Positions 250 to 63,958 of a DNA stretch of 64,000 nt are shown here, one piece after another. Position 1 is the stretch's first letter. Every line of letters begins with the position of its first letter. A program made the translations under genes and the position numbers. Under the pieces are notes generated by a model. That model saw nothing but the letters and a program-made list of their open reading frames with translations, ran no database searches and had not been told where the DNA came from. The DNA comes from Polytrichum commune (Eukaryota; Streptophyta; Polytrichopsida; Polytrichales; Polytrichaceae): NCBI GenBank assembly GCA_950295325.1, contig OX485807.1, forward strand, positions 36,176,440-36,240,439. The letters run 5' to 3'.

Positions 250-3200
250 ATTCAGCAAGTAAGCAATCTTCTTCCTAGAGAGCATGCGCCTCTCTGAGTC
301 AATCCAGTAGGAAGGAATGCCCTTGTGCTCTGCAATTTCTTGCAAGTGAGAGGTATTGCTGGAGTTCCAGCCTCCCACGACCAGCATCAAATCCACTTTG
401 TCTTCCACAAGCTTGTACATTGCATCTTGTCGTTCCTAAAACATCCAAACCAAAAAAATCAAACATTACTCTGTGCCATGCCTTCTCTAATAAGAGCAAG
501 CAACTTCTAGAAGGCAATTATGATGCCACTTGAGCATACATTACCAAAGCCAAACTGATCGATGGCAAAACAAATCCACTTTGTCAGGTGTAGAAATGAA
601 ATATAATAAAATCAGAGAATACTCATAGAATGGGCAACCAAGCCTAATCCCAAATGCCCACATTGGGGGAAAACTTAAATTTCACTAATAACTTTAATCC
701 ATCCTTTCCTCCCACAGCACTTTACATTCAGTGAAACACAGAGTCCTCTAGATTGTCAGAAATGACAAGGGTCTTCAGAAAATTTTCCCACCTGGGTAGC
801 ATCACAAATAGTGTTGAAGCTCATGAAATGATCTGTTGCATTCTCCACTCCATACTTTTGCATCATAGTCCTCTCCAAGAGTTTTCCTGTATTGATGTTA
901 AGATGATTTCCATATGAATACATCAGAATCCAAGAAGTAGTGCCCTACAAAAGCCGAGGGAACATCGAAACCTCAAAAAAATCCAAACATAACTTTCCAT
1001 GAGTGCCATCAGGCAAGTGAACTCAAAACAAATGGAAATTCTTCAAAGAGAAACTCGGTTACATGAGGACTTACCAATCTCTTCAGTCTCCCCCTTCAGC
1101 ATTGTGGTCTGGTTGGCAATTCCAACCTTCTCTAGATCTTTGTCTGGGTTGAAGCCCTCAGAAATTGCAAACTTGAATTTCTGTTCAACAAAACCTTCTG
1201 TGTTAGGATTATTCATCGTCTTCACAACTGGGAGAAAAAAATGGTGATGATCTACAATGACAATGCGTTCATCATCAAAAATTGCAAATGAAGCCAATAA
1301 AGGGATGCGCCATTACTTCAAGAAACTCTTCCTTTGTCCCACTGGAGCCGTCCAACCTGCCTCCTAAAATGTAGTCACACACATAGTTGGCCTGCACAAC
1401 GAGACCTTGTAAGCTTAGAGAATTCAAATCCATAGTTCCCTGACTGAATCCAACTGAGTGGCAGAGTGTTTAAAACCAAAGATTCTATGGTAATCATGTT
1501 AGGTTTTTATAATTTTGTTATCAAATCTGACAGGAACACCAGTTTCTTGCCACAGTGCTTGTGTAAGCAACTACTGGAGCCCTAATAAGTGGTCACTCCC
1601 AAAAAAAATCTCTTTTAGCGAACTTTAATAGAGGAACAATATGTAATTTACTCACCTCTTTCTGGTTCTTCACAATAATGTATTTGCCTGCAAAGGACGC
1701 AGTGGCAACAGTCTCTTCATGAGCATACTTGCCATGGATTACAGACGTGTAAGTGGATTTTTTGTGCTTCTCCACTGTGTTCCAAACCTGTTTCCCAAGT
1801 GAAAGATACAATTTATCATTTCAAAACTCAAGCAGTGGACACCATATGCCTTCGATGTTCTCTTCAACCCAAGACAAACAAAACGACACTCTTGAGGGCA
1901 GAAGGTTTGGCAAGGATGAAGACAATTAAGAAAAGACTCACATATGTCAGGTTCTATCATTGACACAAATACAGGAAGTCATAAAGTGATCCTATCCGTA
2001 AGCCTGCTTGCATTGCGGGATCCTGCAAGAAAAAAGCATGTAACTACTATAGCAGCATAAGAAATAGGATGAGGAGCAAATGACAGAAAATACCTTGGAC
2101 ACCCACGGACAGGTTGTGTCTACAATTTGCACTTTCTTTTCATTAAGAATTTGCATTTCTTGCACTGCTGCCCCAAATGCTGGAAGGATGACCACATCCC
2201 CACTGTCTACAACAGAGAAGTCCTTGCCTTCCTCTGACACAGGCAATTGCGCCACCTTCATTTCTTGCAACCTCTATATACACAATCCACCACCACATGA
2301 GTAACCACACAAAGCACATACACTACAGAATGTACACAAAAACATGTGCACAGACAGGGTGTTTGGATGTAGATCTCTGCAATGGTGAATAACTTGCAAA
2401 TAACTTATAAAACGCATTAGTTTTCTCAATGGTATGTTGAGGTGCAAGTCATATGCACATTCATTATCTCTTCCTACATTGTGAGGTTCTAATCTATATA
2501 ATGAAAAGCAGACAACCTCATTCACAGTCGGGTTGTGGATTATCTCGTTTGTGAGCCACAGCTTTTGCTCTGGAAACTGCTTCCGAGCCTCATACGCAAT
2601 CTGCACTGCCCGCTCCACTCCCCAGCAGAACCCATATGAATTGGCCAACTTCACAGTAACGTTCCCCCATGTATACTCGAAGTTGTTCTCCTTCAACGTC
2701 TTCACTAAGTCACCTGCACATCATTAAATCAGCACAAAACCCTCAGAAACGTAAAATTTCACAATCATGGACATGGCAGAGAACAATGGCACATTAATAC
2801 TTGTTTACTTTTCCCAAACTACAATGATACACGAGGCTGCTCTTTCTATTCCTCCTCTGCTGCCCCGTCTAGCAACAGACAGTTTCTCTTTCTTCTAGAT
2901 TCCAAAATCCTCACATCCCATTTAGTGCTAGACAATGTTCATTATCCGGTTCCACCCAATGGCCATTATCCAACATAATTTCCATCAGGAATAGATTATG
3001 CACATCATTGAAGAACTTTGTAACCAATCTGTTACGAAAATTTATATTTTATGAATGAGGTGAATGTGTTTAAATTGTGTGATTCACCCTAAGAAACTTT
3101 AAGTGGAGAGAATACTCTCTTCCCAAAGGAGATTACGAGAAAATAAGGTCCACGAAAAACATCAAGAGCAAACCATGTCCATGTCGAGGGATCATCACCA

Positions 3201-3954
3201 GCACATAAACCAAATTAAACAAACTACAATGATACACTAGGCCGCTCTTTCTCTTCCTCCTCTGCTGCCCCGTCTAACAACAAAGAAATTATCTTTTCTT
3301 CTAGGTTCCCAAACCCTCGGATCCCATTTAGTGCTAGATAACGATCATTGGGCGAGGCCGGGTCCACCCAGTGGCCATTATCCAACATAATTTCCATCAA
3401 GAATAGATTATGCACATCACTGAAGAACTTTTTAACCAATCTGTTACACAATTTTACAATTCACAAATGAGATGAATATGTTCGAATGTGTGGTTCACCC
3501 TGAGAAGATAAGGTCCACGAAGCACATCATGAGCAAACCATGTCCAATGTCGAGGGATCATCACCAGCACATGGATAAAATTAAATAAAAAGCAAGAAAC
3601 ATCATGCAAAGGTGCAAAGTACTAACTCGTATACTCGACGTCCATCATCTGTAGCATCTCTTTCTTGTACCCAAAACCGCTCCTGTTGTAATTCTCACCC
3701 CTCGTCAGGGTTTTGCGAAACTCCTTCGAGTCGAATTTCTTTTCCTGCTCTTCCGCTGCTGGGGAAGCATCACATCTGATTAGGTCAGCAGCGAGCTTCC
3801 GCCCCTGCTGTTTCCTCTCAGAAGAGGCAGGCACCCTAAAAGACGCCCCGTAAGACGACGATGACGACGAAGCGTCAATGCGTTTCGCACCCACGGTCGA
3901 CAGAGCTGCCAATGGGAGCCTCACACCTCCCGCTAAGCCGCAGGAAGTCGCCAT
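250..3954 (-). CDS. HDR: 4-hydroxy-3-methylbut-2-enyl diphosphate reductase, plastid (3' end beyond window)
   Basis: Last enzyme of the plastid MEP pathway: it reduces HMBPP to IPP and DMAPP using a [4Fe-4S] cluster. Exons (minus): 3954-3627, 2713-2517, 2273-2094, 1787-1656, 1391-1317, 1180-1075, 886-792, 435-250. All visible junctions are GT-AG and together give 433 codons in one frame; plant HDRs are about 460 residues, so roughly the last 30 lie left of the window after the donor at 249. Residues 1-75 are Ser/Ala/Arg-rich, like a chloroplast transit peptide. The three cluster cysteines are present: Cys139 ([11 protein letters not shown]), Cys230 (DTTCPWVSK) and Cys367 (NTICDATQ). Other family blocks are [47 protein letters not shown] and [17 protein letters not shown]. 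The start is the first ATG after a stop-rich leader and precedes the transit peptide directly. Identification is certain; exon ends are read by eye. Confidence 0.96.
2816..3588. repeat. tandem duplication inside HDR intron 1
   Basis: Two diverged direct copies lie head to tail at about 2816-3219 and 3220-3588. Both begin AAACTACAATGATACAC, share the block GCTGCCCCGTCTA, and end with the shared stretch around ATGTCGAGGGATCATCACC. Copy 2 contains an open minus-strand frame (3451-3224) whose translation includes [20 protein letters not shown]; copy 1 is more broken. I do not recognise the protein sequence. The duplication accounts for most of the 913-bp intron. Confidence 0.85.
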
Positions 3955-3968
3955 TTTCCTTCAAGAAA

Positions 3969-4682: not shown

Positions 4683-5631
4683 CAGTGTGTATGTTTGACA
4701 AATTTCATGTGACGTTCAACCTCAAATCCAAAGTGTCACGTGACGTTTTCAAAAACAAAAATGAATGTCAATTGACATCTACATTTTATTCCAAAATGTC
4801 ACCTCAATTTTTGGCTTACACAATATTTTGGAAAACTAATATTTTGAATAATAAAAAACAAACTTGATTTGTAACAAAAAAAAATTATCAATCGAGTGTA
4901 AGTATCCTTCGGTCTCGCATGTTTCTCCAAATGTTGAAGATGGTAGCCCAATCCATTGCATCCACTTCAAGCCCACAAAGAGAAACCTGCATAAGAGCAT
5001 CAAGGGTCTTCAAGTTCAACCTATTGCGCAAGTGGCTTTTGATTGCATTTTGTTTGGAAAATCCTCTCTCACAAACAACTATACTTGATGGAATGAGTAT
5101 AATTTTTTGCCAAAGTTGCATAAGTTTAGGCCAATTTGTGTGCCATTCCAAATTGCTACCACATATGCGCCAAGCCTCAAATATCGTTTTGTTCTCACAC
5201 TCATGTTGAAGTGTTTCCGTAAATTCCAAGAGTTCTCCCTTACACATGTCACTCTCTTCTTCAGTGTATTGAAACATTTGCCTCGCCATGTTCCTAGTTA
5301 GTCTCGCTCTCCGATCATTGTCTTAGCTCCCGGTTACAAAGGAAATTGCAAGAGCAAAGTTGAACTTAAGTATGTGAGTGAGTGTAGGAAGTTCTCCTAC
5401 TGTTATGGGTTATGTTTTCCGGATACTTGAGCTGCACTTTATAGTACTCAAGTAATACGTGTCATTTCAATTTCTAGTGTGTCAATTGACGTGTGGTTTT
5501 CTTCTTCACAAGTCACAATACGTGTCAATTTCTAGATTGTGCGTGTCAATTGATGTGCATTTTTTTTTTGTGCAAGTTTTTGCGTGTCAAAAGAGGAAAA
5601 CTTGCAAAAACTTTGTCAAACATATACACTG
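4683..5631 (-). mobile_element. hAT transposon, internally deleted copy (949 bp)
   Basis: The ends are near-perfect inverted repeats starting CAGTGTGTATGTTTGAC on the left and, as reverse complement, CAGTGTATATGTTTGAC on the right. The element is flanked by a perfect 8-bp duplication GTTTAGAC (4675-4682 and 5632-5639), as expected for hAT elements with CAGTG termini. It keeps only the 3' end of a transposase gene on the minus strand. Subterminal copies of TGTCAATTGACGTG-like motifs occur near the right end. It is closely related to the larger copy at 13243-15357. Confidence 0.93.
4888..5289 (-). pseudogene. hAT transposase C-terminal fragment
   Basis: The open frame encodes the hAT dimerisation region, recognisable by PSSIVVCERGFSKQNAIKS followed by HLRNRLNLKTLDALMQVSL. 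Everything upstream of this domain, including the first part of the RNase-H-like catalytic core, has been deleted, so no active transposase can be made. The same region in decayed form is at 13440-13850 in the larger relative. Confidence 0.88.
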
Positions 5632-13775: not shown

Positions 13776-14120
13776 TCAAAGTGTTTTCATGAATTCCAAG
13801 AGTTCTCCCTTACACATGTCACTTTCTTCTACACTGTATTGAAACTTCAGCAATATCCTTTCGAGCCACAATTCGATATTTGTGATTCGGTCGTTATTAT
13901 CGCTTGGATAATTACAAAGGTTGAACAATTTGGCTGCATTGAACACTGGAAGGTATGGGAAACGATCATTCAAAGCATGAACAACTCCTTGCACATAAGA
14001 TGCACCCAGTAGTATGCATTGTTGTAACTCATTGGGCCCATCAGTTCCCAATGCATGAATAATACGATCTCCTATATTTTTTTCATAACTCAATTGAAGA
14101 AAACCTGGAGATTCTCTCAA
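13776..14120 (-). pseudogene. hAT transposase fragment, middle to C-terminal part
   Basis: Open minus-strand stretch with ALGTDGPNELQQCILLGASY and NDRFPYLPVFNAAKLFN, ending in EESDMCKGELLEFMKTL, a segment also present in the 949-bp copy. The downstream dimerisation domain continues in broken frames down to about 13440. Same element as 13243-15357. Confidence 0.75.
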
Positions 14121-14562
14121 GAAATTTTCCTAAATTCTTGCTTGTACGTCCAAACATAGGTCCATTCCTGGATTAAAAATGACATTATAAAATTGAAATA
14201 GAGATATCCATGGTTGCACTAATAGTTGTGATATCAACCATATCATATTGAAATTTGTTGTTCAATTTATTCAACTTGTGTAAAACATCTACAATCAAGT
14301 TCAAATAAAAATGGAATTTAAAAGAGCACATGATCTCATACCAATGCGGCTCTTAATCTCTAAATAATTCCAATGCCGCCGGCATGTAGTGTAGTAAGTG
14401 GATCATGACATTACCTCGAGAAAGCCACCGCACTGCATGAATTTGTAAAACCACTACATAATTTCCTTCAAATACATCCTTCAACAATAGTTTCAGCTTG
14501 TTGCATCAATTTGTACTATGGCCCACCCACTCATAAATTTTGTTGGCAAAATGATCCACAAT

Positions 14563-18272: not shown

Positions 18273-19769
18273 GCGAGAGAGCTGCCTTCTTGGAAAGCAA
18301 AGAGCAGAAGCTGTATCTCTCCAATTTGTGTGTACATCTCATGTTAATAATTTTCATCTTGATATGAGTTTCCCAACGAGAAATTGAACTGCTGTGTCGT
18401 GATTCGTAGTGAACGTGTGACATTGCTTCATCACCATTTGATTGCAAAGTTTAATCTAGAGGGGTCTCACTCAGTTGCTGGAACAGCCTTCACCACATGT
18501 GATTTGCCTGTCATTTCTCAACATGTCTTTCCCTGGTATAGGAGTTGGGGAGATAAATAAACAAGTGAACTTTAAATGCGGAGAATGAAGATGGTTGAGG
18601 GCTAGAGATGTCCACATCTCCATGTGTTTGTACAGGTTACCAACAGAATTGTCATCCTTTTAAGTTCTCTATTGTTAACAGTTGAATTTCATCAAACAAA
18701 TAGGTAACATTTGTTTGCATTAAGTTGTTATGATTGTGCAATTTGTACAACTTTGCCTCACCTAAAGAGTGCTTTACGTTGTTAGCAGGTTTAGTCTGAT
18801 GACATGTAGAGTGAGTAGGTAGTAGTACCTACTGGAGTTTAAGTTACTGGGATATCCTGAATTCATTAATCAGATGCTCTGTGGTCCTTAGCAACAAAAA
18901 TGGATTTCCTCTAAATGCTCTGCTTGGGCAAAATGAATGAATGAATGAATGAATTAGAAGTGCCTACCTCGTGTGTCGAGATGACGACTTCCCACATGAC
19001 ACTTAAATCTATGTTTCTACCTAAAAGGACTATGCCTACATTCTTCAACTCCAATTCAACTGTTTAGAGTTTTTCAGTGACTCAGCTGCAACCCCAAGGC
19101 ACCACTTGGCTCTACAGCCAATTTCAAGACCCTAAAACACAACTGTGCTGCAGCAACAATTTTGCCACCCATAACTGGGATGACATTGCTTACAATATCA
19201 CACACAGTTCACAGAATCCCGTGAGTGCCATGAAAGATGATGCACACATTGAAGTTTAAATTGAAAAGGTTTATTGTAAAACATAAAGCACACAATAGTG
19301 CAAGATGATTAACAAATCTAGACGTGCCCATTCCTATTTGCCTCATGATATTCAGAGCTCGTATGAATATCTTATTCACTATCAAAATGAAAGATTATGG
19401 TGCTCACCAAGCGGTCATGTAGGTGCACCCAATCATGTTGACTATAGAGCCCATAATGGTTAGCATATATTTTGAGCATGCGGTCCAATCTCTTTTAAAC
19501 AAATGTCTATTTGGTGTCCATTCTTAGATCCACACCTAACCACATACCACTCAAATATAGGTATCCAGATTATTGCTATGGTGAATTCAGGCTCGTTTGT
19601 CTGATAGCTTGACAATTGCATATTTCTGCATCCACACTGACATATTCTATGGACTCGATGCAAAGCATAACAACTCATAAATGTTACTAAATGGGCACAA
19701 AATACTAGAATCAAAACGTTAAATTTAGAAAATTTAAACTATGTATCAATAGAGATAGACACAGAATAT

Positions 19770-24169: not shown

Positions 24170-24520
24170 GGAGAGAGGGGACTATTGTATAAGGGGACTA
24201 TCGAAAATTGGACTTCCCATGACTTGGTTACGGTTATCAAAAGCACATGTTTGTTGATTCCTTAATTGAATACGAAGATCTTCTCGATTGTGTCACTATT
24301 GAATGTAGAGTAGTTATAAATCTTTGAAGATGTAGTCCAATCTCTTTTGTACATGTGACACTGTCTTTATGGTGTTTATTCTTTGATCCTCACCTAACCA
24401 CACACTAATCAAAGAAAGGGTTTTGACTAAGAAAAGTAACCAAATCACACTTGCATACCTTATGGCGAAAGAGTGTAATGGATGGGTATCAAACTCACTC
24501 AAGTTTTGGATCATTTGGGA
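24170..24520 (+). repeat. dispersed repeat family R, copy
   Basis: Shares TAGTCCAATCTCTTTT, GTCTTTATGGTGTTT.TTCTT and GATCC.CACC.AACCACACAC with copies at about 19286-19580, 29400-29730, 32570-32960 and 33735-34110 (same strand) and 29835-30150, 41150-41260, 55165-55460 and 61400-61510 (opposite strand). Full copies are 300-400 bp. No coding frame, tRNA box or clear terminal repeats, so the class is unknown. Confidence 0.75.
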
Positions 24521-26565: not shown

Positions 26566-26853
26566 TTGGCGGATATGAATTCTCAGGAGTGCCACAACCA
26601 TAGGTTCCAAGCGTGGTCGAGAGAGGAGACCAATTTTTTTCTTTAATCTTCGGCCTATCTTGCTCCTTGCGCTCCACACATCACGATGCATTTGGACCGG
26701 CGCTCGAGCAGATTGCCTTTGTTGTTGCTGCTACTCGAATTAGCTTTTTGCACTGTAACATCACGTGACGGGACGAGGACGGCTTCCAAGTTGTCTTCCT
26801 GGCGCAACTTGGCGGCCTGATCCCGTACGTTTTGGAACTTCACCACAACCGGG
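26566..26853 (-). pseudogene. decayed duplicate of the kinase 3' end
   Basis: Matches the end of the adjacent receptor kinase exon 10 at an offset of about 463 bp. The minus strand still reads VVVKFQNVRDQAAKLRQEDNLEAV where the intact gene reads VVVDFQNIRDWAAKLQEEGDLEAV, then loses frame. It begins mid-exon and extends into the 3' flank, so it arose as a local tandem duplication of DNA and not by retroposition. Confidence 0.85.
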
Positions 26854-26914
26854 TGAAGAGGCATTTCATTCATGCTTGATCCCAGTGGAGCTTTGCATTT
26901 ATACCTATCCATCT

Positions 26915-27010: not shown

Positions 27011-30000
27011 TTAAGGTTCGGTGGCGTCTTCGGGTATGGAGGATTCTCGCGAGCGTCGCAGCCAGAGGGTCCAAGCATGATCAAGAGAGGAGGCCACTTC
27101 TTTCATCTTCGGTCTATCCTGCTTCTTGCGCTCCACGCATCGCAACGCCATTCGGACCACCTCGAGCAGGTCACCTTTGTCGCCTGTGTTGGTGCCACTC
27201 AAACTGTGCGCGTCTTGCACTGCAGCAGTTACATCAAGTGACGGGTCGAGGACGGCTTCCAGGTCGCCCTCCTCCTGCAGCTTTGCAGCCCAATCCCGGA
27301 TGTTTTGGAAGTCCACCACGACCGGCCGGCCGCTCATGAGCTCCAGCAGCACAATGCCGAAGCTGTACACATCACTCGCGAACGTGACCTGGCCGCTGGA
27401 GACGAACTCGGGGTCCAAGTACCCGAACGTCCCGCCCATGCGGCTCGCCATCAAGTAGGACGACGCGTTCTTCGACTCGTCCCGGTTCCACAGCGAGAGC
27501 CCAAAGTCCGAGACGTGGGACTCCATGTCCGCATCGAGTAGAATGTTGGCAGGCTTCACGTCGCCGTGGTAGATCTTGGGCACCGCGTACTCGTGCAGAT
27601 ATTCGAGCCCCTTGGCCGCGCCCATGGCGATCTTCAGCCTCGCCTCCCACCCCAGGAGGCGCTTCGAGCTCGAAGGGGTGTCAGGGCCGCTCTGGGAAGG
27701 CAAATCCTGTATTTTGTAGGGAGCAAGCAAGCAAGGGGCGTCATCAAAATAGTCTAAGGCTCAAGCAATCTCGTCATTATTATCAACTCAGAAACAAAAC
27801 ATGAAAATTATTATCACGAGGTGACCCGAATGAAATGAGTGGAGTGTTTCCTAAGGTATATAACAAGGGTTGTCATTCAGTGCTTCAGTCTTTGTTTTGT
27901 GGGACTCAATACTTGTTGATGAGAGAGAGAAAAGAGAGATGACTCCGATGTTGCCAAACCAGCGTGAAATTGGTGTTGCTTCATCTAGAATTACGTCTAC
28001 ATGTGATTCCAAAATGAACATCACGAGAATTGGGGATATCCAACAAACATCGAAGCTCCACACGGCAGCTATTAAGAGTGGAATCTCCACTAGAATAGAA
28101 ATAGGGCATAAACCTTGTGTTGAATTATGTTATGAGTTATTAAATAAGGTTCATGAAATCCCTTGTTTTATCCTACGACCCATGCAAAATAGGGTTTCTG
28201 CTAATTCATCTAAAAAATCCATTGCCCCGCGGCGAATGTCGAGGTCAACCATGTGATATATCATCGAATTCGTTATTTCGTGGGTGCAACGAATTCATTC
28301 ATTCATTCAAAGAATACACTGTATGAAAGAAAACCAAACCATCATAAAAGATCAGAAAAGGAAAAGTGAGTTCCTACCTCCCCAGTGAGGGTAGGGCTGC
28401 TGCCGTGCAACCAATCCGCGAGCGTCCCGTTTTCCATGAACTCGTACACGAGGATGATCTCGTCCTTGCAGTAGCCCAACAACCGCACCAGACGCTTGTG
28501 GTTGAGTTTGGAGAGAAGCTCGAGCTCCGTTGCAAATGTATCCCACACCTGGCCGCCTTCGCAGGTGTCCGCGAGGTCCCCCCGAGTCGGCTTCTTGATG
28601 GCCGCCACCGTCCCGTCCGCAAAGGTGCCTTTGTAAACCAAGCCGTGTGCACCCCGGCCAAGCTCCGCCGAGGTGCTCCAATTGTCCGTTGCGGCGGAGA
28701 GCTCCTCTTGCGAGTATTCAATCAACGCCCGGCTTGCCTGGCTGCCCCATCCACCGGAGTTGGCTCGCAGAGACCGCCCTCGGCTCTTCATTCCCCTGCT
28801 TGATTAATCACACCACCCACATTCATCGTTACATGAGCAAGCCTTGCGTACCTTTAAAGAACGCACAGTCTCAATATACAGTCAACTACACAATTTGTAC
28901 AAGCCTCACCAAGCTCATCAGTCATTTTACATGTTTATATATGGATTTGAAACCTTATTTCATACATTGTCTTATGTCAAGGAGAAGAAATATATCTCTG
29001 TATATATACACCCGTACGTGACATTGATGTTCAAGATACAACGTGTGTATTTGCATCGAAGGGCCCTCAAGCTGCAGATTGAACTCAAATCTTCCATAAC
29101 ATCAAGGTTATCAACCATGTCAAAAAGTGTACTCGAAAAATAAGTTGATTATGGAATCGATCACTTTTGACATGATTGATTGAAAATGCAAGCATGTAGC
29201 TCACACACAAGTTTTTGTGCATGGAGAGGTCCAGTCAGGGCCTCTCGGATGCTTAAAGGGTTGACAACATTGTTCGTTGGATCGAGGAAGTTGCAGTAGC
29301 TCAACAAACCATGGCGTTATCGCAACGAGGTACTAGAGCCAAAGGCAAAGGGAACGCATGTCCATTACCAGATGTAGTGGTTAGGGTATGGCAAGGTCGT
29401 CAATTAAGATAAACGGGTCTTAAACGGGACACATTTAGCTTTGCACCTTCTGTTAGGATATGAAACATGCAATTAGTGCAAGATGATCAACAAATTGAAA
29501 TCGTGTCCGTAGCCACTTTCATCACTAATTTAGTCAATATTCTCTTTCTCATCAATTGATCATATAGGTCCCCCCCAAATCACATTGACCATTAAGCTTA
29601 GAATGGTAAACAAATTTTGCATGCGTGTTTTAAACACTATTCTTTTTTATATTCGTTCTCAAATCCACACATAACCACATACCGCTCAAATAAATATAGG
29701 TGTCCAATTAAGATGAGTATTTGGATTAGGTCGCTTCCCTTACGTAGGGTGATTATGCCCCCTCGTATCCAATCAAGAATAAGGTAGATGGGTCTTGACT
29801 TAAGTGGCTCGTTTTCTTGATCAAACCCCAAGATTTGATTGGTGTGTGGTTCAGTGAGGATCAAAGAACAAACATCATAAAGCCATGTGTTTAAAAGAGA
29901 TTGGACTATGTCTTCAAATATTACTAACTACTCAATAGTGAGCACAATTGGGAAGACCTATGTATCCAATTAAGAAATCAACAAACGCGCACTTCCGATA

Positions 30001-33000
30001 GCCCATAACTACATGAGGAGAGGTCTGATTTTCAATCCGGTTTTTGCAGACGTTTCATCGTAGATTTGCTAATGCAACACGAGTTTTGTTGTCTAAATCT
30101 AATCGGTAGAAGTTGGAAAACACGAGGACTTTTTTTTCAAAAAAATAAAAAATAAAAAAATCCCATACCCTAGACGTGTCTAACAAAATCGCTCGACCTA
30201 ACCACTACAAAGAGGAAGAATTGGAAGTACTGGAGCTTACGTGGGTGAAGAAGGGAACGATCCGGATCTGAACTTCCCGGGAGACTCGGAGGAGGAGGGA
30301 GTCGTCCGGTGTGATTTGTTCGATGCTTCCGCTTTCCCAGGTAGCAGATGGTTATATCTCCTTCCGAAACACCCGAACCAGAGCAGGGCGAGGAGCAAAA
30401 TCAGGGCCAGAGCCACTCCAACTCCAATCCCGCTAATCTTTGTGGCACTCAGAGAGGAACTGGCTCGACTGAGCGCCGACGCTAAGCAAACACCGGGGCA
30501 ATTGCAGACTCGCTGCGTGAAGCTCAGGCCACTCGTGTCGTTCGTTAAGCACAAGGGATTCTTCGGGGCTGCCACGTTGAAGCATTCGTTGGCTGATGAA
30601 TAGCTCATCTGCCAGACGCCCAGAAATTATATGAAACACCACCAACACCATCAGTTTTCGTGCCATACAGCCGTAGCATTCACCCTTCAGCGTCTACGAC
30701 GAGGCCCAGATTGGGCCTCTCCATCCATGAAAACATGTATTTCGAGCTGCATTTTTCTTCTTTCATGTTTAAGCCAATTATGTCGAAAGTGATCCTACCT
30801 AAATTTCACTCATTCCTCAGATGCACTGTTTGAATCAGTTGAACACCTTGATGTTAGTGTAGATTCAAAGTCAAATCCGGAGCCTGAGTGACCTTATATG
30901 CAACTACAGACATTTTATTTTGATTATCAATGTCAATATGAGTAGATTTTCCTTTTCTCCCTGACATAAGGCAGCGTATACAGTAGAACAAGGTTGCGGA
31001 CCCATGAATATATAAAATCTGATTTATGAACTTATCCTTCATAAACACCTTGGTTTTAAAATAAAAAAATCTAGACTACCATATCAAGATATCTAATCGG
31101 TACCAAATCGGGAAGAGTTTAGTGGTTATGGAAACAATCTCCATAACCCCTGTATCGCCAAGATTGTGCTTTATAATCTCCCCCAGATGGCGAAGGAAGA
31201 AGATCTATGAGGTTTATACGAGTGATGTAACTGAAGGGATGCCGCCAACACCGGGCCAACACCACTCTAAAATGAGATGAAGACTTTCCCAACATCTACA
31301 ACCACAACATAAGGTAATGAAGCTTCAAAAGATCACAGGTTCAATAGTGACACCTACTTTGGGTCTCTAACCTAAAGCTAGCTAGCCTGTTCACCATCTA
31401 CCTCCAACCTACTTGACACTATGTGAGTGGTTGGAGTGCAAGGGAGCATGCACACATGATCGATGTATTAAACCCCTCCCCCCCCCCCCAAAATGATATG
31501 GAATCTTGATTTCATGCTTAACTCGATTCGTTCTCTCACAAGTTGTGTAAGATAACCGACACGTGTCTCCCAACTATAGAGTTATAGGCATGCCCACTCG
31601 CCACTCCCGTGGCTTGTGAAGGCAAACCCATATTTGAGCTCCTCGTGCTGAGTTAGTTCTCATACTCAATTTTGACATGCCCATAACCAAATTGTCGGAG
31701 ATCTCATCGCATGGCCACTACCTCAAGTGACACGAACTAGGGTTCAGGGTTCGTACAAAACAATGAACCGGGAGAACCGACCGCTAGTTACAGATGAACC
31801 CGGTTGAGTTTGAGAAATAACCGGTTGAAGTTCGAAACTTCAGGAAAATTACCGATCACTTTTGAGGAATCTATGGAAAATACACCTCAAATCAATGAAG
31901 AAAAACCGAAAGATCACAACATGTAACCGGTTAGACTTGGAAACACTAGGATCTTGATCGATTATGCCCAAAAATTACTCCGGACACTGGTGCAAAATAC
32001 TTACGTTGCAAGGAAGGCGGGGGGGCACGAGGCCGGTGAGCGAGTCAGTGTTTGAATGCGACAACAAAGCCGTCGAGAAGTCGGATTGGACGATCGATCC
32101 CAACTCCTCGATGAGGACGTCGATGCCCGCGACACCGATGAGCGTGTAATTATCGGCGAAGGCCGGGTACACCACGGTGATCACTTTCCCGAGGCTTCCG
32201 TTGTCTTGGTAAGGGGCCGTCCACGCCGGAGTGTTGTTCACGGCCGTGAGCCGGATTCTCGCGAGCACGCCGAAGTAGGACCGAAGCGTCCATAGAGGAT
32301 TCGCCACCGTCTTGCTGATCTTTTCGTAGGTCCCGTAGCAATCGCAGGCGAGCTGCGACAAGGGATTCGACCCCGAACTGAGCCTGTCGAAACTGTAGAT
32401 TTGTACGAGAACGTTGAGGTTTCGGATGCTGTCAAACACGGTAGTCGTCGTGCCATTCGCAGAAACCCCGGAACTCACAGCGTCGATTTGCCCATCTGTG
32501 AATGTCAAAATCACCTGGAAGAATTCACACCCGTGAAGTGTAAGAATGTTAAATCAATCCTCACATGATCCAAGTTGGGTTCGTTTTTCATGTTCTCCAA
32601 CTTCTACCTATTTTATTTACACAATGGAACTTGTGTCGCATTATCACATCTACGATGAAGTATCAGCAAAAGTCGGGGAGTGATTATCGGACCTCCCATG
32701 ATTTAGTTGAGGTTATCCGAAGTGCGTGTTTGTTGATTCCTTGAACTGAACTCCCAATTGTATTCACTACTGAGTGTGGAGTGGTTTATAAAATTTGAAG
32801 ACGCAGTCCAAATCTCTTTTAAACATCATGTGTCTTTATGGTGTTTGTTCTTGGATCCACACCAAACCACACACCAATCAAATATAGGGGTCCGATTAAG
32901 AAAACCAACTGAATAACACCCGCACACCTTACTGCCCAGCAGACTATAGAAAAATATATATTAAGTTTTGAAATTTGAGCGACTCCAATGATGGTAAGGT

Positions 33001-36000
33001 AGGTGAGTTTTTGAGATTGGTTTGTGACAAATGTGCCGGAAATTAATATTATTTCAGAAAGATTTCAGATTTCAGAACAGATTATTGGCAATTTTATAAG
33101 AACATATCAAGGACATCTTTGCAACAGAATTTGGTTGCCATTAGAAAATAGCAAGAAGAAAATGGCCATTTGAGAGACACATTGAAAAATCCCAAAAGCT
33201 CTGCAAAATTGTGCATATTCAGACTTGCATCATTGGTATATTGAGAGTTGTAGTCGAAGAAGTTGAGGGTTCAGCTCTTAGCATTAATTCAACCTTTACA
33301 TTTGGTATCATCTATCAGCATTCTCAAGAATCTTCTGTAAAATGGCTCTAATTCACTCGGGAACGTACACAACTACCCAACAATTTTCCTTACGTCCAGT
33401 CTTCCAGGCATAGCTTGAGACTCAGTTTAGCTGGCTTCACGATTTTGTAAATGTAGGTGAGAGCATGAATCATACCTTGAGTGCAATGGAGTTTTGATAG
33501 ATTTGATTTGCCGCAACAAAGCCTGCTGTCAGATTGGAAGCCCCTTGGGTACTATCAGCTACAAGAGGTTGTAAGGCATTTTTCAAATCTTGGAGATTTG
33601 TTGCATTAACTGTCATCTGCAAAGTTAAAAACATGCCACTGTCAAGAGACACGCTTCATCCAAATGATGGAAAACCAGAAAAGTCTGTAAGGGGTGAATC
33701 TCCACATCTGAATGCAATAGATCATAAGTTTGATCAATGCATTTAAGGTAGATGGGTCTTAAATGGTTACAGTATCTGACTAAGACACTTCTCCTAGGAC
33801 AAGACATACGTGATTAGTACGATATGATTAGCAAATCCACATGAAAGCCATAGCCACTTTCCTCATGCTTTTTGAAGCTCATATGAATATCCATTTATGA
33901 TGATGAGGATTCTTGTGCTCGTTACGTGGTCATGTAGGTCCCTCCAATTATGTTGATTACTGAGCTTACAAGGGTACCATAGTTTGAGCACATGGTCCAA
34001 TCTCTATGAAACACGTGTCTTTTGATATCAGTTCTTGAAGCCACACCAAACCACATGCCACTCAAATATAGGTATCTTATAAAGGAAAGCAACCAATTAA
34101 GGGATGTATACCTTAATGACCACAAACTTGGGGCCACAAAATCCGTATTGTGTGAACATGATGCACAAACTATATAAAGCTAGCCCTATTCCCTTTGGGG
34201 CTTAGGGTGAGTTTCCATGTAGGCCACTTGCCCACTATAGTGTAGATGATTGTGGGTTGGAGGTGTTCACATGGAGTTAAGCACAAGCCGCCATCCGACC
34301 ACATTCTCACGGTCCATTAGAATGTAGAGGGCCATGGACACATGCCGCTAGACATCAATGCGCACACTACAAAAACTTTAACCTACAAGTGTCGGTCACC
34401 AAAGGATTAAGACCGGTTGAAGACTCAAGAGAACTCCATCCTTGGTAATTGGGAGGAGGAGGTTAGTAGGTGAGTCCGGATTTGAGAAGATGGGAGTAGC
34501 TAGTTGCCACATACAAACCTTACCCCACCAAATTCCTCTACAGTTGGGCAGGTCGGTCCTTATTCACACTAGAATGTGGTGGACGAGCAACCTACACGAA
34601 AACTCACCCTTAAACTTCCTAAGAGAAAACAAGAGGCACGAGATAGCTAGGGGATAGCTACACTAAACATTCGATTTAGTCTAGCATTCACATTGGTGGC
34701 CATGTTAATTAAAGTGATCTTCATGACTTGTCACATACCACCCAAGTGTCATATGACAGCCTCTCTACTTGCAATCCAATGATTGCACAACAATTAGTGT
34801 GGGTCGATGATGAATAGTGTGGGCCACGCCAATCACATGTTTAGTATAGCTACAAAGGTGAGAGGAGGGGAACAAGGAGGCTCTCTCTTGACACAAGGTT
34901 GGGAGGTAAACGTACACGTTCTTACCACACACTTGCATTGGAACTGCCAGTTATGCTAAAAAAACAAGTACCTACAAACCAAGATGGTAGAAGTGAGCTT
35001 AAATGGTGCAAGCTTGACAATATTTATTTGATTTGATTACTCACAGGCGAGAGAACAGGTGATGCAACAGCCGAGCTCGTGAACGTAACGATTGTGATGC
35101 GGTCACCAATGGCCAGCGTGTCTAAGAATGAGGTTAGCATTGACACTAAGGCTTGAATCTTTGTTGTGCTGGTAGTAACTAGCAGGTCACCAGGAAGGCT
35201 GTCTCCCATTGAATTTCCTGCGTCAAGCAGCACAACCACATCCTTCTTCACCGCTGTCACTCCCATGTACCTGTCAAGCGTGTATAGAAAGTTCAATTTC
35301 TGAGAAAATTCTTACCCCTCAAAAGAAACATACATGGCCTCGTGACATTGTTAAGATCTGCATATCCTAACCCTTTTGCCTAAACGGGCAGCCTAGGCAA
35401 GCTGACATATTTAGGATCAGGAAACACTCGCGTAAGCAAGATACAGCCTTAATGCTTATGGAATTGGCCCATTACTATTCTTGCCAGAGTGAATTTTGAT
35501 TCCTCATCTACGGCAGTCCCATAAGAAGCTTGACAATGTTACACATGCTACCTACATTGACAGAATGTGAGATCCTCATTCTGCAAACTCTTTGGAATTT
35601 ACCTAATTCTTGTACTATCCAGATTCTTAGAAGTGTACATAATTGCCGAGTTGAAATAGAGAGGGATTTATGTGTTAAAATTGTTGAATCAGCATGTTCA
35701 TAAATGGAGTTACAGTTGAGAAGTTATTTACCATGGCCGTTTTCTTGGTTCAAAGGTGCAATTGTTTGCTGCTACATCCTGCAATGACATGAAAGAGTGA
35801 TTTCATTTTTCTCCTCTAGCAACTCTCATTTTGTAAAGATGATGAGGACATATTGAAGGGCATTCTAACTAGATTACTCAGCTCAGAAGTTGATGCTGGA
35901 AAGCATCCTTCCACAAATTCAAAACGACACGGAGTAAGTGCCAATGCTAATAAGCTATGGTTAATTCCTGACTATTATCTGTGGTTTTAATGAGTAAAGC

Positions 36001-37830
36001 TCGGCACAGGCAGATCGCATACAATAAATTAGTTTCACACATGCTTCAAATTGTATCCTATATATGTGGAATTCTCACCCGTCCCGGAAAAGCTCGATGT
36101 ACTCCTTCCACAGACGCAAAATAAGTCCATGAAGTCAGATTCAAAGCACTGTTGTGGGAACTCGAGATGTTCATGAAGATTGGATCCAGCATTCGCTGTG
36201 AGCATATCGTAGCATTCGCTTCATCTGTTAAAGTAACATTGGAGCCTGTTGGAAGCCTGTAAGTTAACCACCATCAACTTTAAGTATCAATATTACAATT
36301 GACCTTTTCGCTTTTCCCACGTTTCTCAAACCGGGCAACTGCAATTAGGAAACTAATTAAGAAGAAATGCTTGAGTAACACGAACTTGGAGGAGCTGGAT
36401 GCAATGAGTAACTCGAAAATATTCATTGCTTTCAACACTGCGATTGGTTTCAAGCACCAAACTGTTTGGCAAGGTTTGCTTAATTATGCAAGAATTGACC
36501 AAGCCAAAGCGTTGAAGTATGATGAATCCGTCTTCAGCTATGAGGAAATTCTTGACCACTTCGACATGTGTTGGGGAGCTAATCTAACAACTTAATCCAC
36601 ATCCACTCCAACCCCAAGATTAATTCTTGCAATATGAAGTTGCCCAATGATTTTGGGCTAGTTGCTCATGCTTACGAGTCTTGTTACCTTTCTTAAGGTT
36701 GTTTGAATCCACCGCAAGTGCCTAAGCTAGCTGTGCCTCTCTCTTTCCCAGTCCTAGTGGCTTTGTAATTTTTGGTGAGTGGATTAAAGCGTTTCACTAG
36801 TCTCCAAAAACAAACAAACAAACAAAGTAAATAATAAATGATAAATAATAATAACAAAAGAAAACAAATATTGAGATTGGTTTGTATATGTTTCAATATT
36901 AAAAGGTTTACCTGACAAAGCTTTTGGTTAAAGAGACTCGCAGTTGCGAACATCCCTGGGCTCCATTTACACTATAGCAATTGGGGTTGAGGGCCACATC
37001 CTTGCAAGTATAGCCAGCTTCATCACCTTGTAATGGTACACAAGCCTGCCGAGAACAATTTCCTTCACATGAAGCCACCAACGCTGCCAGCAGAGAAATT
37101 GATTCAATATTAAATAGATACTGAAACAATTTCAACCAGGTCTGTGCAAGGGGAGAACACAAAGAATTCTCCAATTACAAAGGCTGCTAATTCATTCCTG
37201 ATCACAGACATCCAGGACAACAATGCCACTGGACTCTATACACCTTGGACTGTAGAAGTGAACTTGTCCATTACAACCGTCTGTTGCAGCTCGCCTATTC
37301 CAACTCTTCGAGAGAATGTATAAATAAATAAATTTGGTTGCCCAGTGGAGGTTTTTGGCTGCGGTTTTTTACACTTGGCCGCAACTGAATTGATCATTTA
37401 TACAATTTTTGTAGGCAGGAGCTGCCATTGACGGTTGAAATGGACAAGATTTCTTCAAGCGATGAGAGGATAGGCTCCATCCAGTCCCATGAGTCTCTAA
37501 TGTTTCAGTGTCATACCAAGCCTTTGAACAACAAGCCTGAGATTTGCATATAGAATTAAAAGCATGAAATTAAGGTGTTTGAACCTGTAGCCTTGGGGGT
37601 TCTTGATATGTGCATTGTATTGACAAATTAAATCTGACATGGTCAAAGTCAGAGTTTCTCATACCACAAGAATTCATGAAATTGAGCACAGCAGCCTGCG
37701 CAATCTCCATAACCTCTTTCTCCACCTTGTTGATGTAATCCACAGCATCCAACCCACTTTGTGCATGGCAAAGACTAATTATTGCAGCCAAAACAATAAT
37801 AATCTTCACTGGGTCAGACGGTCTCCCCAT
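27011..37830 (-). CDS. receptor-like kinase with alpha2delta-type VWA/Cache ectodomain
   Basis: Ten exons (minus): 37830-37665, 37083-36912, 36256-36079, 35778-35732, 35270-35045, 33616-33476, 32514-32005, 30608-30241, 28795-28378, 27706-27011; every junction is GT-AG and one frame of 973 residues results. Residues 1-23 are a signal peptide (IIIVLAAIISLCHA). The ectodomain is Cys- and Asn-glycosylation-site-rich; RKRPWY (184-189) leads straight into a VWA domain (DVVVLLDAGNSM, 198-209; TFTDG, 314-318), followed by a Cache region to about 470 with LIGVAGIDV (435-443). The membrane helix is about 538-560. The kinase has the Gly loop GRGAHG (649-654), Lys670, Glu693, HGD (789-791, not HRD), DFG (809-811) and GTFGYLDPE, so it looks active but non-RD. 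The N-lobe resembles CRINKLY4-type kinases. Ligand unknown. The ATG chosen gives the signal peptide directly; a TTG further upstream is not a plausible start. Confidence 0.92.
29400..29730 (+). repeat. dispersed repeat family R, copy in kinase intron 8
   Basis: Contains GATATGAAACATGCAATTAG and the core AATCCACACATAACCACATACC...AATATAGGTGTCC. Another copy lies just beyond it in opposite orientation (29835-30150), making a loose inverted pair inside the same intron. Confidence 0.7.
29835..30150 (-). repeat. dispersed repeat family R, copy in kinase intron 8, inverted
   Basis: Carries the complement of the core (GTGTGTGGTTCAGTGAGGATC, then TTAAAAGAGATTGGACTA) and ends with AATCGGTAGAAGTTGGAAAA, an end also seen at 55833-55855 and, complemented, near 32590. 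Confidence 0.7.
32570..32960 (+). repeat. dispersed repeat family R, copy in kinase intron 6
   Basis: Near full length: CAACTTCTACCTATTTTATT at one end, then CTCCCATGATTTAGTTGAGG, GCAGTCCAAATCTCTTTTAA and CCACACCAAACCACACACC. Confidence 0.75.
33735..34110 (+). repeat. dispersed repeat family R, copy in kinase intron 5
   Basis: Begins TTTAAGGTAGATGGGTCTTA and includes GATTAGCAAATCCACATGA, CATGGTCCAATCTC and CCACACCAAACCACATGCC. Confidence 0.75.
34657..34852. mobile_element. MITE family M, copy 2 (kinase intron 5)
   Basis: Terminal arms TAGCTACACTAAACATTCGA and, from the right, TAGCTATACTAAACATGTGA are inverted repeats. The 196-bp interior matches copy 1 (TTGCACAACAATTAGTGTGG, GGGTCGATGATGAATAGTG). 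Confidence 0.8.
36299..36595 (+). other. coding-like antisense ORF in kinase intron 2
   Basis: A stop-to-stop open frame of about 98 codons on the opposite strand of the host gene, with codon use resembling real protein (LIKKKCLSNTNLEELDAMSN, AFNTAIGFKHQTVWQGLLNY). It lacks an ATG until the middle and has no flanking exons. I do not recognise it; a retroposed or captured coding fragment is the likeliest reading. Confidence 0.35.
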
Positions 37831-52600: not shown

Positions 52601-55160
52601 CTCAAGCGTAATGTGAAGCAAACTTGGACGGGCTCTGCCTTTTCCACCAATGAGAGTGCTTGAAGTGTACTTGTCTTGGGCTCTCAGGCTCGTGTGTGAA
52701 GTGGCTCTTAGTATACAAAGGAAATAAAAATGCACGAAGTCACTTATTTGACAACTTAAGGTGGATTTACACTTGGGGGCCAAGACCAAAGTAAACTCCA
52801 AAATTGAGTGATCCTATTGGTCAAGAGCTAAATTCATGTCCCAAAAGCGTTTACACTAGGGTCTAGGCCCAACGTACAAAAAAATGAAGTGTTGTTAACG
52901 TGGCATTACTCTCCCACCAAATCTTGACAGTCCCCACTCAAGAAAATACTCCTCCTAATTTAAGAAACCTAATCTTCAAGCTTAGATTCAAGATTGGGCC
53001 CAATCTTGAGTCCAAAAACAAGATCCATGAAAGGGGTGTTTCGGACCCCAAGTTTCCTTGGACTGGGTCACTATTGTAAACCACCCTTTGAAAGTAATTT
53101 TGGTATTTGTGTGTGATCGAACATAAGGTACGTGTGTGGAGCCTTCCTGGCTCACATTGCACACAAGACACGAGAGGAAACAAAGGTGGAGCCGGGAACG
53201 AGACCAAGGGCTGGAGCGGGAGTAGCACCGCACCGGCAGCGACACCAAGTTGGGACCAAGGCCAAGCCCGAGAGCAAGAGGACTGAGGACCAACTAGGAG
53301 GATAAAAATTAGATTGGGAGCCTGAGGATGAAGAGACTAGGAGCCAACGAAGACAAGACAAGGAGCCACATGTGTGAGGACCGGGAGCCAAGGAGCCATG
53401 GGAACACGAGAACCGAACTCGAATTTAAAAACATAGTGAGCAACCAAGGACTAATTAGTAAATATACTTAGATGAACTCATGTAGATGAAAGACATATAA
53501 CTGGGGATGACCACCCGACTGGACGGACTTAACCTCCGCAACCACTTTGGATGAAAATAATCAAATGAGATATTGTAAGGCACATCTAGGCATGTAGTTA
53601 AAACCAACCACATGTCTCTCAAGGCTACATATGAATTAAACACGTGTCTATTACCAAAAATATATTAACCAAGCTAAAGTTGGACTATGAGAACACTTAC
53701 ATTCTAAATTAAGAATTTGGAACATTTGGTAATAGGGGAAAGAGGCATAACCACCGTATTAAGGAATTCCTAGATAATGGAACCTATATAAGAGGGCACT
53801 TGAGCCCCTTAAGATACGTCATTTCAAACACGAACAATTTCACGTGAGCATCGAGACGACTACCAAGAGCAAATTCACGAAGACCTTTTGGACTATTCCT
53901 TGAAGACCTTTAAGGCTAAACGAGAAACCTTTGGTAAACCAAAGGACTCGTAAACCTCAAGCAAACTTGGATTTAATGCCGCGGAAGAACAAGAACAATT
54001 CAATGCTTAGGAAATAGCTAACGAAAGCATATTCCAAAAGAAACTAAAAAAGACTTTTGAATCTATGAGATTTTGGAGATTGGACAAAACTTGAAAAATC
54101 ACCCAAACGTTACTGAACCCCAAGGGAAAATGCACATAGATCCTAAAGAAATTTGAAGGAAGCACAAACGACCAAAAGGGTCAAACAAAAGTAGTAAGAT
54201 AAGAAAATTTAACAAAACATTGGTGAAGGAAATCTATCCAAATATAATGGGAACACCGAAAGGACAATATAACTTCAACCATTACCCAACATACACCAAG
54301 ACTTTGAAGGTTGAAGAGAAGGGTGTTTACCCACCAATATACTCGAACACCTTTGGAGTTGAAGTTACGGGTTAAACACTGAATGACAGGATAGGCATAA
54401 ATCGGCAAACACATAATCATTGAGAGAGGAAAGACGAAGGAGAGGCCGCCAAGTGGGCTACATCGACCATTGCCCTGCAATCAAGCACAAACTAAGATTT
54501 CACTGTATCATACCCCTCACATCAAGAAAGGGGATTTTGGGGATAATTAAGAAAGATATGTAGAAAGTACAAGATCATTGACCATGGAAAATTTTAGGTC
54601 ATACACACGTTAGTCTAGGAATCTTGATCAAATACTTTGGATGTAAGATTTCATGAAATCAATACGGAGGTGTACTTGGTGAATGATGTAATAAATAAAT
54701 ACCCGTAATCAAATGCCATTCATCAACTAAGTAGATTTGCATTAGCGAGGGAGTATGTTTGAATTGCACAAGGACTTTGATACTCTTAACTACACACTCT
54801 TGGAATTTGGATTGAATAAGAGTGATTATAAGTCATTCAAACCATGAAAGATATAGGAGTGATTTTCCATGATATTGGATATATGAATAAATTCCACTCC
54901 AAAAATACTTAACCTTGACATTGGGATTTAAGGGAACATAATCTTAGAAACCTGGGACATCTACCCCTTGAGGATCCATGAGAGCTAGAAAAAGGAACGT
55001 TATACAAAACTAAGTGTCAATAATAGTATACATGTGACCACCTTCATAGAAATGGAAATCTAGAACAATCTAATTTTGGTGGGAGTGATGTTAGTGTAAA
55101 CCGGTCAGCAGCGGGTTACACCGTCTAAGGTTGAGGGTTGAAGGTGACCTCTATAATGTG
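49631..55160. other. long repeat-rich intergenic stretch, no gene called
   Basis: 49628-49880 repeats sequence at 47008-47160 (TTGAGATCAA.GACATTCCCATCCCAACC). 50290-50960 and 52800-53400 are richer in GC and may be degenerate retroelement DNA. A promoter-like CTATATAAGAGGG occurs at 53786-53798. TTTTGGTGGGAGTGATGTTAGTGT at 55074-55097 resembles a polypurine tract next to an LTR start, but I could not find a partner LTR. No intact coding region. Confidence 0.45.
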
Positions 55161-55164
55161 GGTG

Positions 55165-55460
55165 TTCATCATTTACTTATCTTAATCGTACACCTATATT
55201 CGAGTGGTGTGTGGGTCAGGTGAGGAACAAAGAACAAACACCATAAAGACACATGTGTTAAATGTGATTGGACTACATTCACAAAGTTTATCAACTACTT
55301 CACACTCAATAGTGAACACAATTGGGAGGACCTATGTATTCAGTCGAGGAATCGAAACTAACAAGCACTTTCCATAACCATCACTAAACCATGGGAGGTT
55401 TGATTTCTCAATCCATTTTTTTTGTTGGTGCTTCACTGTAGATTTGCTAATGCAACAATT
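55165..55460 (-). repeat. dispersed repeat family R, inverted copy
   Basis: Complement of the core: CACCTATATTCGAGTGGTGTG, AGAACAAACACCATAAAGAC, GTGATTGGACTAC, GTAGATTTGCTAATGCAACA. Confidence 0.75.
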
Positions 55461-63873: not shown

Positions 63874-63958
63874 TGGGGTGAGAGAGGCTCGAACTCTCGA
63901 CCTCAGGATTTCTCTTTAGCTATGAGACCTACGCGCTAGCCAACTGCGCCACCACCCC
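63874..63958 (-). tRNA. elongator tRNA-Met (CAT) with 11-nt intron
   Basis: The minus strand folds as a complete cloverleaf: acceptor GGGGTGG pairing with TCACCCC, D arm GCGC/GCGC, anticodon CAT at 63922-63924, and TpsiC arm GAGAG-TTCGAGC-CTCTC. An intron of 11 nt (63910-63920) follows the purine 3' of the anticodon, the canonical position. Elongator tRNA-Met and tRNA-Tyr are the usual intron-containing tRNAs in plants. The mature RNA is 74 nt before CCA addition. Confidence 0.97.

Follow-up and report, generated by a model that had tools for sequence, protein, structure and literature searches.

Does a moss encode a receptor kinase whose extracellular part is built like an animal calcium-channel subunit, and if so, what might it sense? 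The question is raised by a minus-strand gene at positions 27011–37830 of a 64,000-nucleotide stretch of Polytrichum commune DNA (assembly GCA_950295325.1, contig OX485807.1), hereafter the window. A sequence-only reading of this DNA had placed a signal peptide, an RKRPWY motif, a VWA domain, a Cache segment, a transmembrane helix and a kinase in one frame, and had proposed a membrane receptor for an amino acid or similar small molecule. Receptor kinases are a main route by which plants read their surroundings. This gene joins to one of them a sensor module of the kind found in an animal calcium-channel subunit and in bacterial amino-acid receptors, and suggests that the moss may sense extracellular amino-acid-like molecules.

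Gene structure and ectodomain homology

Rebuilt from its splice sites, the gene consists of ten exons and nine introns, all GT-AG, and encodes 973 residues without an internal stop. Coordinates, strand, exon number, length, the RKRPWY motif (residues 184–189) and Asp442 (within GIDV at 440–443) agree exactly with the sequence-only reading, and its sequence of parts in a single ten-exon frame is borne out by the spliced model, hydropathy, Pfam and homology. The chain runs from a signal peptide through a Cache module, with the VWA inserted directly after RKRPWY, to a Cys-rich stalk, one transmembrane helix and an RLK/Pelle kinase. Judged by hydropathy only, the N-terminus is hydrophobic and signal-peptide-like and a single later hydrophobic stretch lies at about residues 536–562; before residue 540 there are 13 N-glycosylation sequons and 18 cysteines, one of them inside the signal peptide. 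The features are as follows.

37665..37830, minus: exon 1, with the ATG, the signal peptide MGRPSDPVKIIIVLAAIISLCHAQ and the N-terminal segment (spliced model, hydropathy)
36912..37083, minus: exon 2, Cys-rich N-terminal segment, residues 56–112 (spliced model)
36079..36256, minus: exon 3, first part of the Cache module, residues 113–172 (spliced model, ectodomain profile)
35732..35778, minus: exon 4, 47 bases encoding DVAANNCTFEPRKRPW, the W188 codon being split by the intron (spliced model, alignment with PctB YDPRRRPWY)
35752–35754 and 35737–35739, minus: codons of F181 and R186, both in exon 4
35045..35270, minus: exon 5, Y189 (35267–35269) and first part of the VWA (spliced model)
35210–35224, minus: degenerate metal-ion-dependent adhesion site (MIDAS), D204-A-G206-N-S208, in exon 5
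33476..33616, minus: exon 6, middle of the VWA (spliced model)
32005..32514, minus: exon 7, end of the VWA and second part of the Cache module, with Y412 (32209–32211) and D442 (32119–32121) (alignment with PctA Y144 and D173)
30241..30608, minus: exon 8, Cys-rich stalk, transmembrane helix (about residues 536–562) and juxtamembrane segment (spliced model, hydropathy)
28378..28795, minus: exon 9, juxtamembrane segment and kinase N-lobe, with catalytic Lys670 (28594–28596) (spliced model, Pfam)
27011..27706, minus: exon 10, kinase C-lobe, with HGD 789–791 (27560–27568, non-RD), DFG and the stop codon (spliced model, Pfam)

The least certain part of the model is intron 9 together with about 20 extra residues beside it, between residues 733 and 760; the kinase of a paralogue in the same genome (locus L024), which by eye shares most exon borders with the window gene, lies in one exon without them.

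The ectodomain alone, compared with PDB sequences, finds alpha2delta-1 (E 5.5e-11) and CACHD1 (2.3e-7), and with a profile built from seven moss ectodomains the values are 2.1e-23 for alpha2delta-1, 4.3e-15 for CACHD1, 5.8e-5 for PctA and 3.6e-4 for PctB. The insertion point of the VWA is common to the moss RPWYMGVTAVKKDVVVLLDAGNSM, alpha2delta-1 and archaeal RPWYIGAITGAKDAVIIMDISGSM sequences. With the VWA cut out, the profile matches 23 distinct PDB sequences at E<=1, 13 of which are alpha2delta-1 (best 5.7e-6), the other ten being nine bacterial chemoreceptor sequences (PctA 6e-5, PctB 0.0015, others 0.014 to 0.063) and one sensor-domain diguanylate cyclase (0.93). A chance motif is rejected, as the profile still matches alpha2delta-1, PctA and PctB without its VWA. 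The matches of single halves are weak: the first Cache half alone finds CACHD1 (1.5e-5), PctB (0.0075), alpha2delta-1 (0.1) and PctA (0.18), with a chance-level sulfatase at 0.18, and the second half finds CACHD1 (0.0015), PctA (0.027) and alpha2delta-1 (0.031), with chance-level subtilisins from 0.56. Pfam recognizes the kinase in the single protein (PF07714, E 7e-35) and gives weak, sub-cut-off matches to VWA (E 0.001) and MCP-like_PDC_1 (E 0.0011); at E<=0.01 across the 11 members of alignment A2, it finds MCP-like_PDC_1 in 10, the kinase in 9, VWA_2 in 6 and VWA in 5. The VWA is assigned from these matches in relatives and from the joint alignments.

The likeness to animal alpha2delta-1 and CACHD1 lies in a VWA set into the Cache module at the identical point, directly after R-x-R-P-W-Y, and in a closing strand with GV-G-D, the match spanning about 320 residues. 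The moss protein differs from both in its DxGxS MIDAS and in having no recognizable second Cache, and as opposed to alpha2delta, a lipid-anchored, channel-associated subunit, it continues into a Cys-rich stalk, a transmembrane helix and a cytoplasmic kinase. Similarly, the motif Arg, Trp, Tyr, Tyr and Asp of the bacterial dCache_1AA chemoreceptors PctA and PctB stand in register with the moss sequence, which differs in the VWA insert, a Phe for Tyr121, a membrane-proximal Cache that is not recognizable and an output through an RLK kinase instead of chemotaxis. In sequence comparison it is the membrane-distal Cache module that matches PctA, and the proximal module is not recognized. Profile matches to alpha2delta-1, PctA and the archaeal proteins all end near D442, leaving about 93 Cys-rich residues up to the membrane, so that the ectodomain probably comprises a single Cache module, with its VWA, carried by a Cys-rich stalk rather than a full double Cache. 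Judged by its motif, the VWA metal site is degenerate, unlike the intact DxSxS of alpha2delta-1: it is of the D-x-G-x-S type, Gly standing in for the first Ser in every one of the 12 rows. At the last Ser, one row has Thr and a second has Phe, and Tyr takes the place of the loop Asp in one.

The kinase belongs to the RLK/Pelle family by its best PDB matches (BAK1, FERONIA, SYMRK and LysM receptor kinases), and its motifs are intact (AIKK 668–671, HGDVKPAN from 789, DFGLS from 809). Because the catalytic motif reads HGD, the kinase is of the non-RD type. In flowering plants, non-RD kinases are characteristically found in immune receptors acting together with an RD partner. The protein has the signal peptide, single transmembrane helix (hydropathy), kinase type and Lys, HxD and DFG residues of an RLK/Pelle receptor kinase, and shares topology and kinase family with BAK1, FERONIA and the LysM-RLKs. 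Just downstream, at 26580..26864 on the minus strand, the 3′ end of the kinase is duplicated in part; this copy is broken and shares 47% identity with residues 866–963.

The ectodomain itself falls outside the classes named in the accessible part of PMC10834447 (LRR, G- and L-lectin, WAK, DUF26, LysM, malectin, PERK and thaumatin-like). That plant receptor kinases are not generally described with a VWA-in-Cache ectodomain, as the sequence-only reading had held, is in line with the open literature searched, in which we found no receptor kinase with this or an amino-acid-sensor fold; we regard the protein as representing a receptor-kinase class whose ectodomain was not found described there. A term search of PMC10916322 and PMC10868138 gave no mention of VWA, Cache or von Willebrand, and the main text of PMC10834447, a survey of 177,645 plant RLKs, contains neither VWA, Willebrand nor Cache. 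That text assigns almost 70% of the surveyed RLKs to seven other ectodomains, and VWA-Cache kinases may therefore be hidden, without a name, among the others.

Relatives in mosses, archaea and bacteria

The ectodomain was searched against 5.8 billion proteins, with 8000 candidates scored in each of three protein searches, a design from which nothing follows on absence from liverworts, hornworts, ferns, seed plants or algae. At least 11 related proteins were found, and the five that carry a species name are all from mosses: Ceratodon purpureus (P0001, P0009 and P0011), Sphagnum balticum (P0004) and Physcomitrium patens (P0007). The kinase is present in 9 of the 11; P0003 stops before the membrane, P0011 has no kinase, and part of the VWA is missing from the gene model of P0007. 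Three named moss genera have kinase-fused relatives, and the joining of an alpha2delta-type VWA-in-Cache ectodomain to a plant kinase in one protein, which had been proposed for the window gene, is upheld by the PDB searches and recurs in other mosses. A profile search gave at least 13 proteins, ten of them already among these relatives, and a third search, with P0011 as query, matched only P0011 among the 8000 scored candidates. P0001 is 66% identical to the window protein, P0003 61%, P0004 58% and P0006, P0008 and P0009 50–51%, with similar values for ectodomain and kinase. A tree of 11 ectodomains has good support on three of its eight inner branches and leaves the placement of the window gene open. 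In a further protein, P0014, whose ectodomain is truncated in its database record, the last part of this ectodomain (62% identity across 110 residues) is fused to a different kinase, probably a pseudokinase, with HxD reading HLG and DFG reading VFG.

An own-genome protein search covering 408 Mb in 64 contigs gave 24 matching stretches over seven loci, the window gene included. L024 and L025 have the exon order of the window gene and, downstream, an HGD kinase open in one exon. L026, with an in-frame TAG in its Cache exon and Y412 and D442 lost, looks decayed, although it retains an open kinase exon with HGD. The distant L028 and L029 have YDPRKRPW in its own exon, a VWA and downstream exons of another, HRD (RD) kinase lineage; GVAGID is seen in L029, the exon matching that segment was not found in L028, and at both loci ectodomain and kinase would be united in one transcript. 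At L027, which preserves YETRQRPW and GVAGTD, neither of two kinase queries gave a match in the ~14–16 kb downstream. The Tyr that opens the motif is retained in L027–L029. Kinase-fused relatives are present at five other loci of this genome (one decayed, and two, where the fusion is putative, with the RD kinase lineage), and by these sequences the module appears to recur beside two kinase lineages and also without a kinase.

Beyond plants, a bacterial-source scan of prokaryote genomes gave at least 15 loci, and among the matches listed only one, on a Candidatus Hodarchaeota contig (L001), spans both VWA and Cache. L015 was matched in both Cache halves, its protein having no VWA by Pfam, and the other 13 listed loci, L003 among them, were matched by range in the first half only (up to query residue 223). 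Of 195 genomes of the Hodarchaeota phylum, which is the Asgard group, five have VWA-in-Cache matches at E<=1e-8, and the module is therefore not confined to animals and mosses. At the same threshold there was no match in 188 genomes of the L015 phylum or 200 of the L003 phylum, sets that had no positive control and do not exclude bacteria. Four of the archaeal frames are open, with 552–609 residues (L035–L038), and one (L001/L030) has an internal TGA; L035 and L036, which are 92% identical, and the TGA-bearing frame keep YDPR-RPWY, WSWPYVD, GVVGAD and the MIDAS D-x-SGS. Aligned against each other, the moss and archaeal profiles match along 288 columns with probability 99.4 and E 1.7e-21. The archaeal profile also recovers alpha2delta-1 and CACHD1 across the entire unit, at 1e-30, slightly outscored by inter-alpha-trypsin inhibitor chains, which match through the VWA alone.

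These archaeal membrane proteins resemble the moss protein in having the VWA at the identical insertion point. They differ in an intact MIDAS DxSxS, in the lack of a kinase, in a pocket Arg that is lost in two of the four and in an additional Cache-like region that follows the VWA (Pfam dCache_1 is matched through to its end in all four, and passes the cut-off in one). The moss and animal module may reflect archaeal ancestry or transfer, and its presence in archaea, animals and mosses bears on the origin of alpha2delta, as its VWA-in-Cache core occurs independently of animal calcium channels. In L001, L035 and L036, a frame for a second Cache protein without VWA follows. The deltaproteobacterial protein at L015:1309-3510 combines a Pfam Pkinase domain with a Cache that reads YDPRLRPWY, PYED and GVAGLD; in this bacterial counterpart, an amino-acid sensor without VWA is joined to a Ser/Thr-type kinase.

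The putative pocket and its possible ligand

As far as the source texts were accessible, PMC9901441 prints the amino-acid motif as YxxxRxWY plus Y...D and describes Arg241 and Asp491 of alpha2delta-1 as important to gabapentin action, and PMC10104139 gives the PctA motif residues as Y121, R126, W128, Y129, Y144 and D173, of which R126 forms a bond to the carboxyl group of the ligand, W128 and Y144 are favourably placed, D173 is a key residue and Tyr129 is structural, with no ligand contact. We took the motif Tyr to be five residues before the Arg (PctA numbering, PctB sequence), unlike the printed form. HMMER aligns moss FEPRKRPWY with PctB YDPRRRPWY, setting F181, R186, W188 and Y189 on the motif, and moss PYqD and GvaGiD with PctA PYVD and GVVGGD, so that Y412 corresponds to Y144 and D442 to D173. 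Five of the six PctA pocket positions are identical in the window protein, the exception being Phe181 for Tyr121. Arg186, Trp188, Tyr189 and Asp442, the pocket residues proposed earlier, all align with the bacterial and alpha2delta motif; the counterpart of Tyr189 is structural, the opening Tyr is Phe181, and Tyr412 (PctA Tyr144) adds one further motif residue.

Among the covering rows, with P0011 left out, R186 and W188 are each kept in 10 of 10, Y189 in 9 of 10, and Y412 and D442 in 11 of 11. The kinase-less P0011 has Tyr at the place of F181 and retains Arg, Trp and Tyr, but Y412 is replaced by Leu and D442 by Ser. Invariance at five of six pocket positions exceeds chance when reckoned over the whole ectodomain (hypergeometric P 0.006), and mean column identity is 0.78 and 0.81 in the Cache halves, 0.67 in the VWA, 0.65 in the N-terminus and 0.61 in the stalk.

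We consider this protein to be, with somewhat better than even confidence, a single-pass cell-surface receptor kinase whose amino-acid-sensor-type Cache pocket binds an amino acid or amino-acid-like ligand. The Cache module, with the VWA between its halves, would hold the universal pocket (F181, R186, W188, Y412 and D442, with Y189 structural); an apoplastic amino acid or similar molecule would bind there with its carboxylate on R186 and its amino group presumably near D442; binding would displace both the Cys-rich stalk and the Cache/VWA unit; and the displacement would change the state of the intracellular non-RD RLK/Pelle kinase, probably together with an RD partner kinase. Sequence establishes the gene with its architecture and homology, and also the pocket residues and how they are conserved; ligand class, conformational step and signalling partner are what we infer, amino-acid sensing being a sound but putative reading. 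Should the pocket bind, mosses would offer a receptor kinase for extracellular amino acids that can be probed with a pharmacology already known, that of the gabapentinoids.

Several observations weigh against this interpretation. The Tyr that opens the motif is Phe in 10 of 10 covering rows (P0011 left out), pocket invariance is only marginal when reckoned within the Cache halves (P 0.05), and the alignment rows behind the conservation counts are not independent, several being close relatives. A second, membrane-proximal Cache is not recognizable in the moss protein by a test of sequence. CACHD1 is absent from the PDB matches of the VWA-less profile, yet is found by each Cache half alone, and the VWA piece of the window protein alone finds no VWA in the PDB, only two cysteine synthases at 0.5–0.6. 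Archaeal L037 and L038 keep the VWA and its position and have lost the pocket Arg, and alpha2delta-3 and alpha2delta-4 do not bind gabapentinoids according to the accessible part of PMC9901441; together these cases indicate that such modules can persist without the pocket. The archaeal losses lower our confidence in an amino-acid ligand, which the Tyr-to-Phe change and the missing second Cache temper further.

The strongest competitor, which we hold to be clearly less probable and still worth serious consideration, leaves the architecture unchanged and has the pocket bind another small molecule or a peptide terminus, since Tyr121 became Phe and the loops differ. The uniform F181 speaks for it, whereas the distant paralogues L027–L029 keep Tyr, as does the shared ancestry of amine and purine dCache_1 subfamilies with amino-acid sensors, from which they differ at a few pocket positions (PMC10104139 and PMC11245519, in their accessible parts). 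Against this, the moss protein keeps both the key Asp and the carboxylate-binding Arg, which the accessible part of PMC10104139 describes as not conserved in amine sensors. Built on the amino-acid reading, a wider picture is possible, if doubtful: a moss family of extracellular amino-acid receptors, its module shared with Hodarchaeota-type archaea and animals, would be wired separately to non-RD (this gene) and RD (L028 and L029) kinases, both pairing on ligand, with gabapentin-like drugs acting on them.

It is unlikely that the Cache is a structural scaffold with no small ligand and that the VWA contacts a partner, either a protein or part of the wall. Proteins are the usual partners of VWA domains, the VWA-bearing Cache of CACHD1 lacks the Trp of RPWY (EHRSRPIYVS), and L037 and L038 do without the pocket Arg; however, the first MIDAS Ser is Gly throughout, the last Ser and loop Asp are altered in single rows as well, and the Cache halves are better conserved than the VWA. 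A role as an auxiliary channel subunit would fit alpha2delta-1 being the closest solved relative, but we think it very improbable for a protein with its own kinase, intact catalytic motifs and no canonical MIDAS, and land plants are not known to possess CaV channels. An artefact of the gene model, with ectodomain and kinase as separate neighbouring genes, would be conceivable for a gene known here from DNA alone, but is nearly excluded by annotated fused relatives in Ceratodon (P0001 and P0009), Sphagnum (P0004) and Physcomitrium (P0007), by own-genome paralogues L024 and L025 with the identical order, and by P0002, P0005 and P0006, which encode 928–1015 residues in one piece on contigs of at most 4.2–4.8 kb, shorter than the intron-bearing genomic copies and therefore probably transcripts; the split into VWA/Cache and kinase genes on which the sequence-only reading had let its case depend is very unlikely in view of the full-length fusions.

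Other features of the window

Dispersed repeats of up to ~300 bases, 73–79% alike, lie partly within this gene's introns and partly at other places in the window (29811–30125, 32588–32905, 24200–24462, 55157–55457 and 19296–19572), the first two being in opposite orientation. Pieces of a LytB/IspH gene of the isoprenoid pathway lie at 2274–3960 on the minus strand, with a Pfam LYTB match of E 2.5e-11 for 2274–2720 and a likeness of 3622–3960, by eye, to the N-terminal end. Remains of hAT transposases are found on the minus strand at 4888–5322 (Pfam Dimer_Tnp_hAT, E 2.6e-6) and, similar by eye, at 13776–14129. A tRNA-like gene lies at 63874–63958 on the minus strand (Rfam, 48.7 bits; anticodon not named by ARAGORN).

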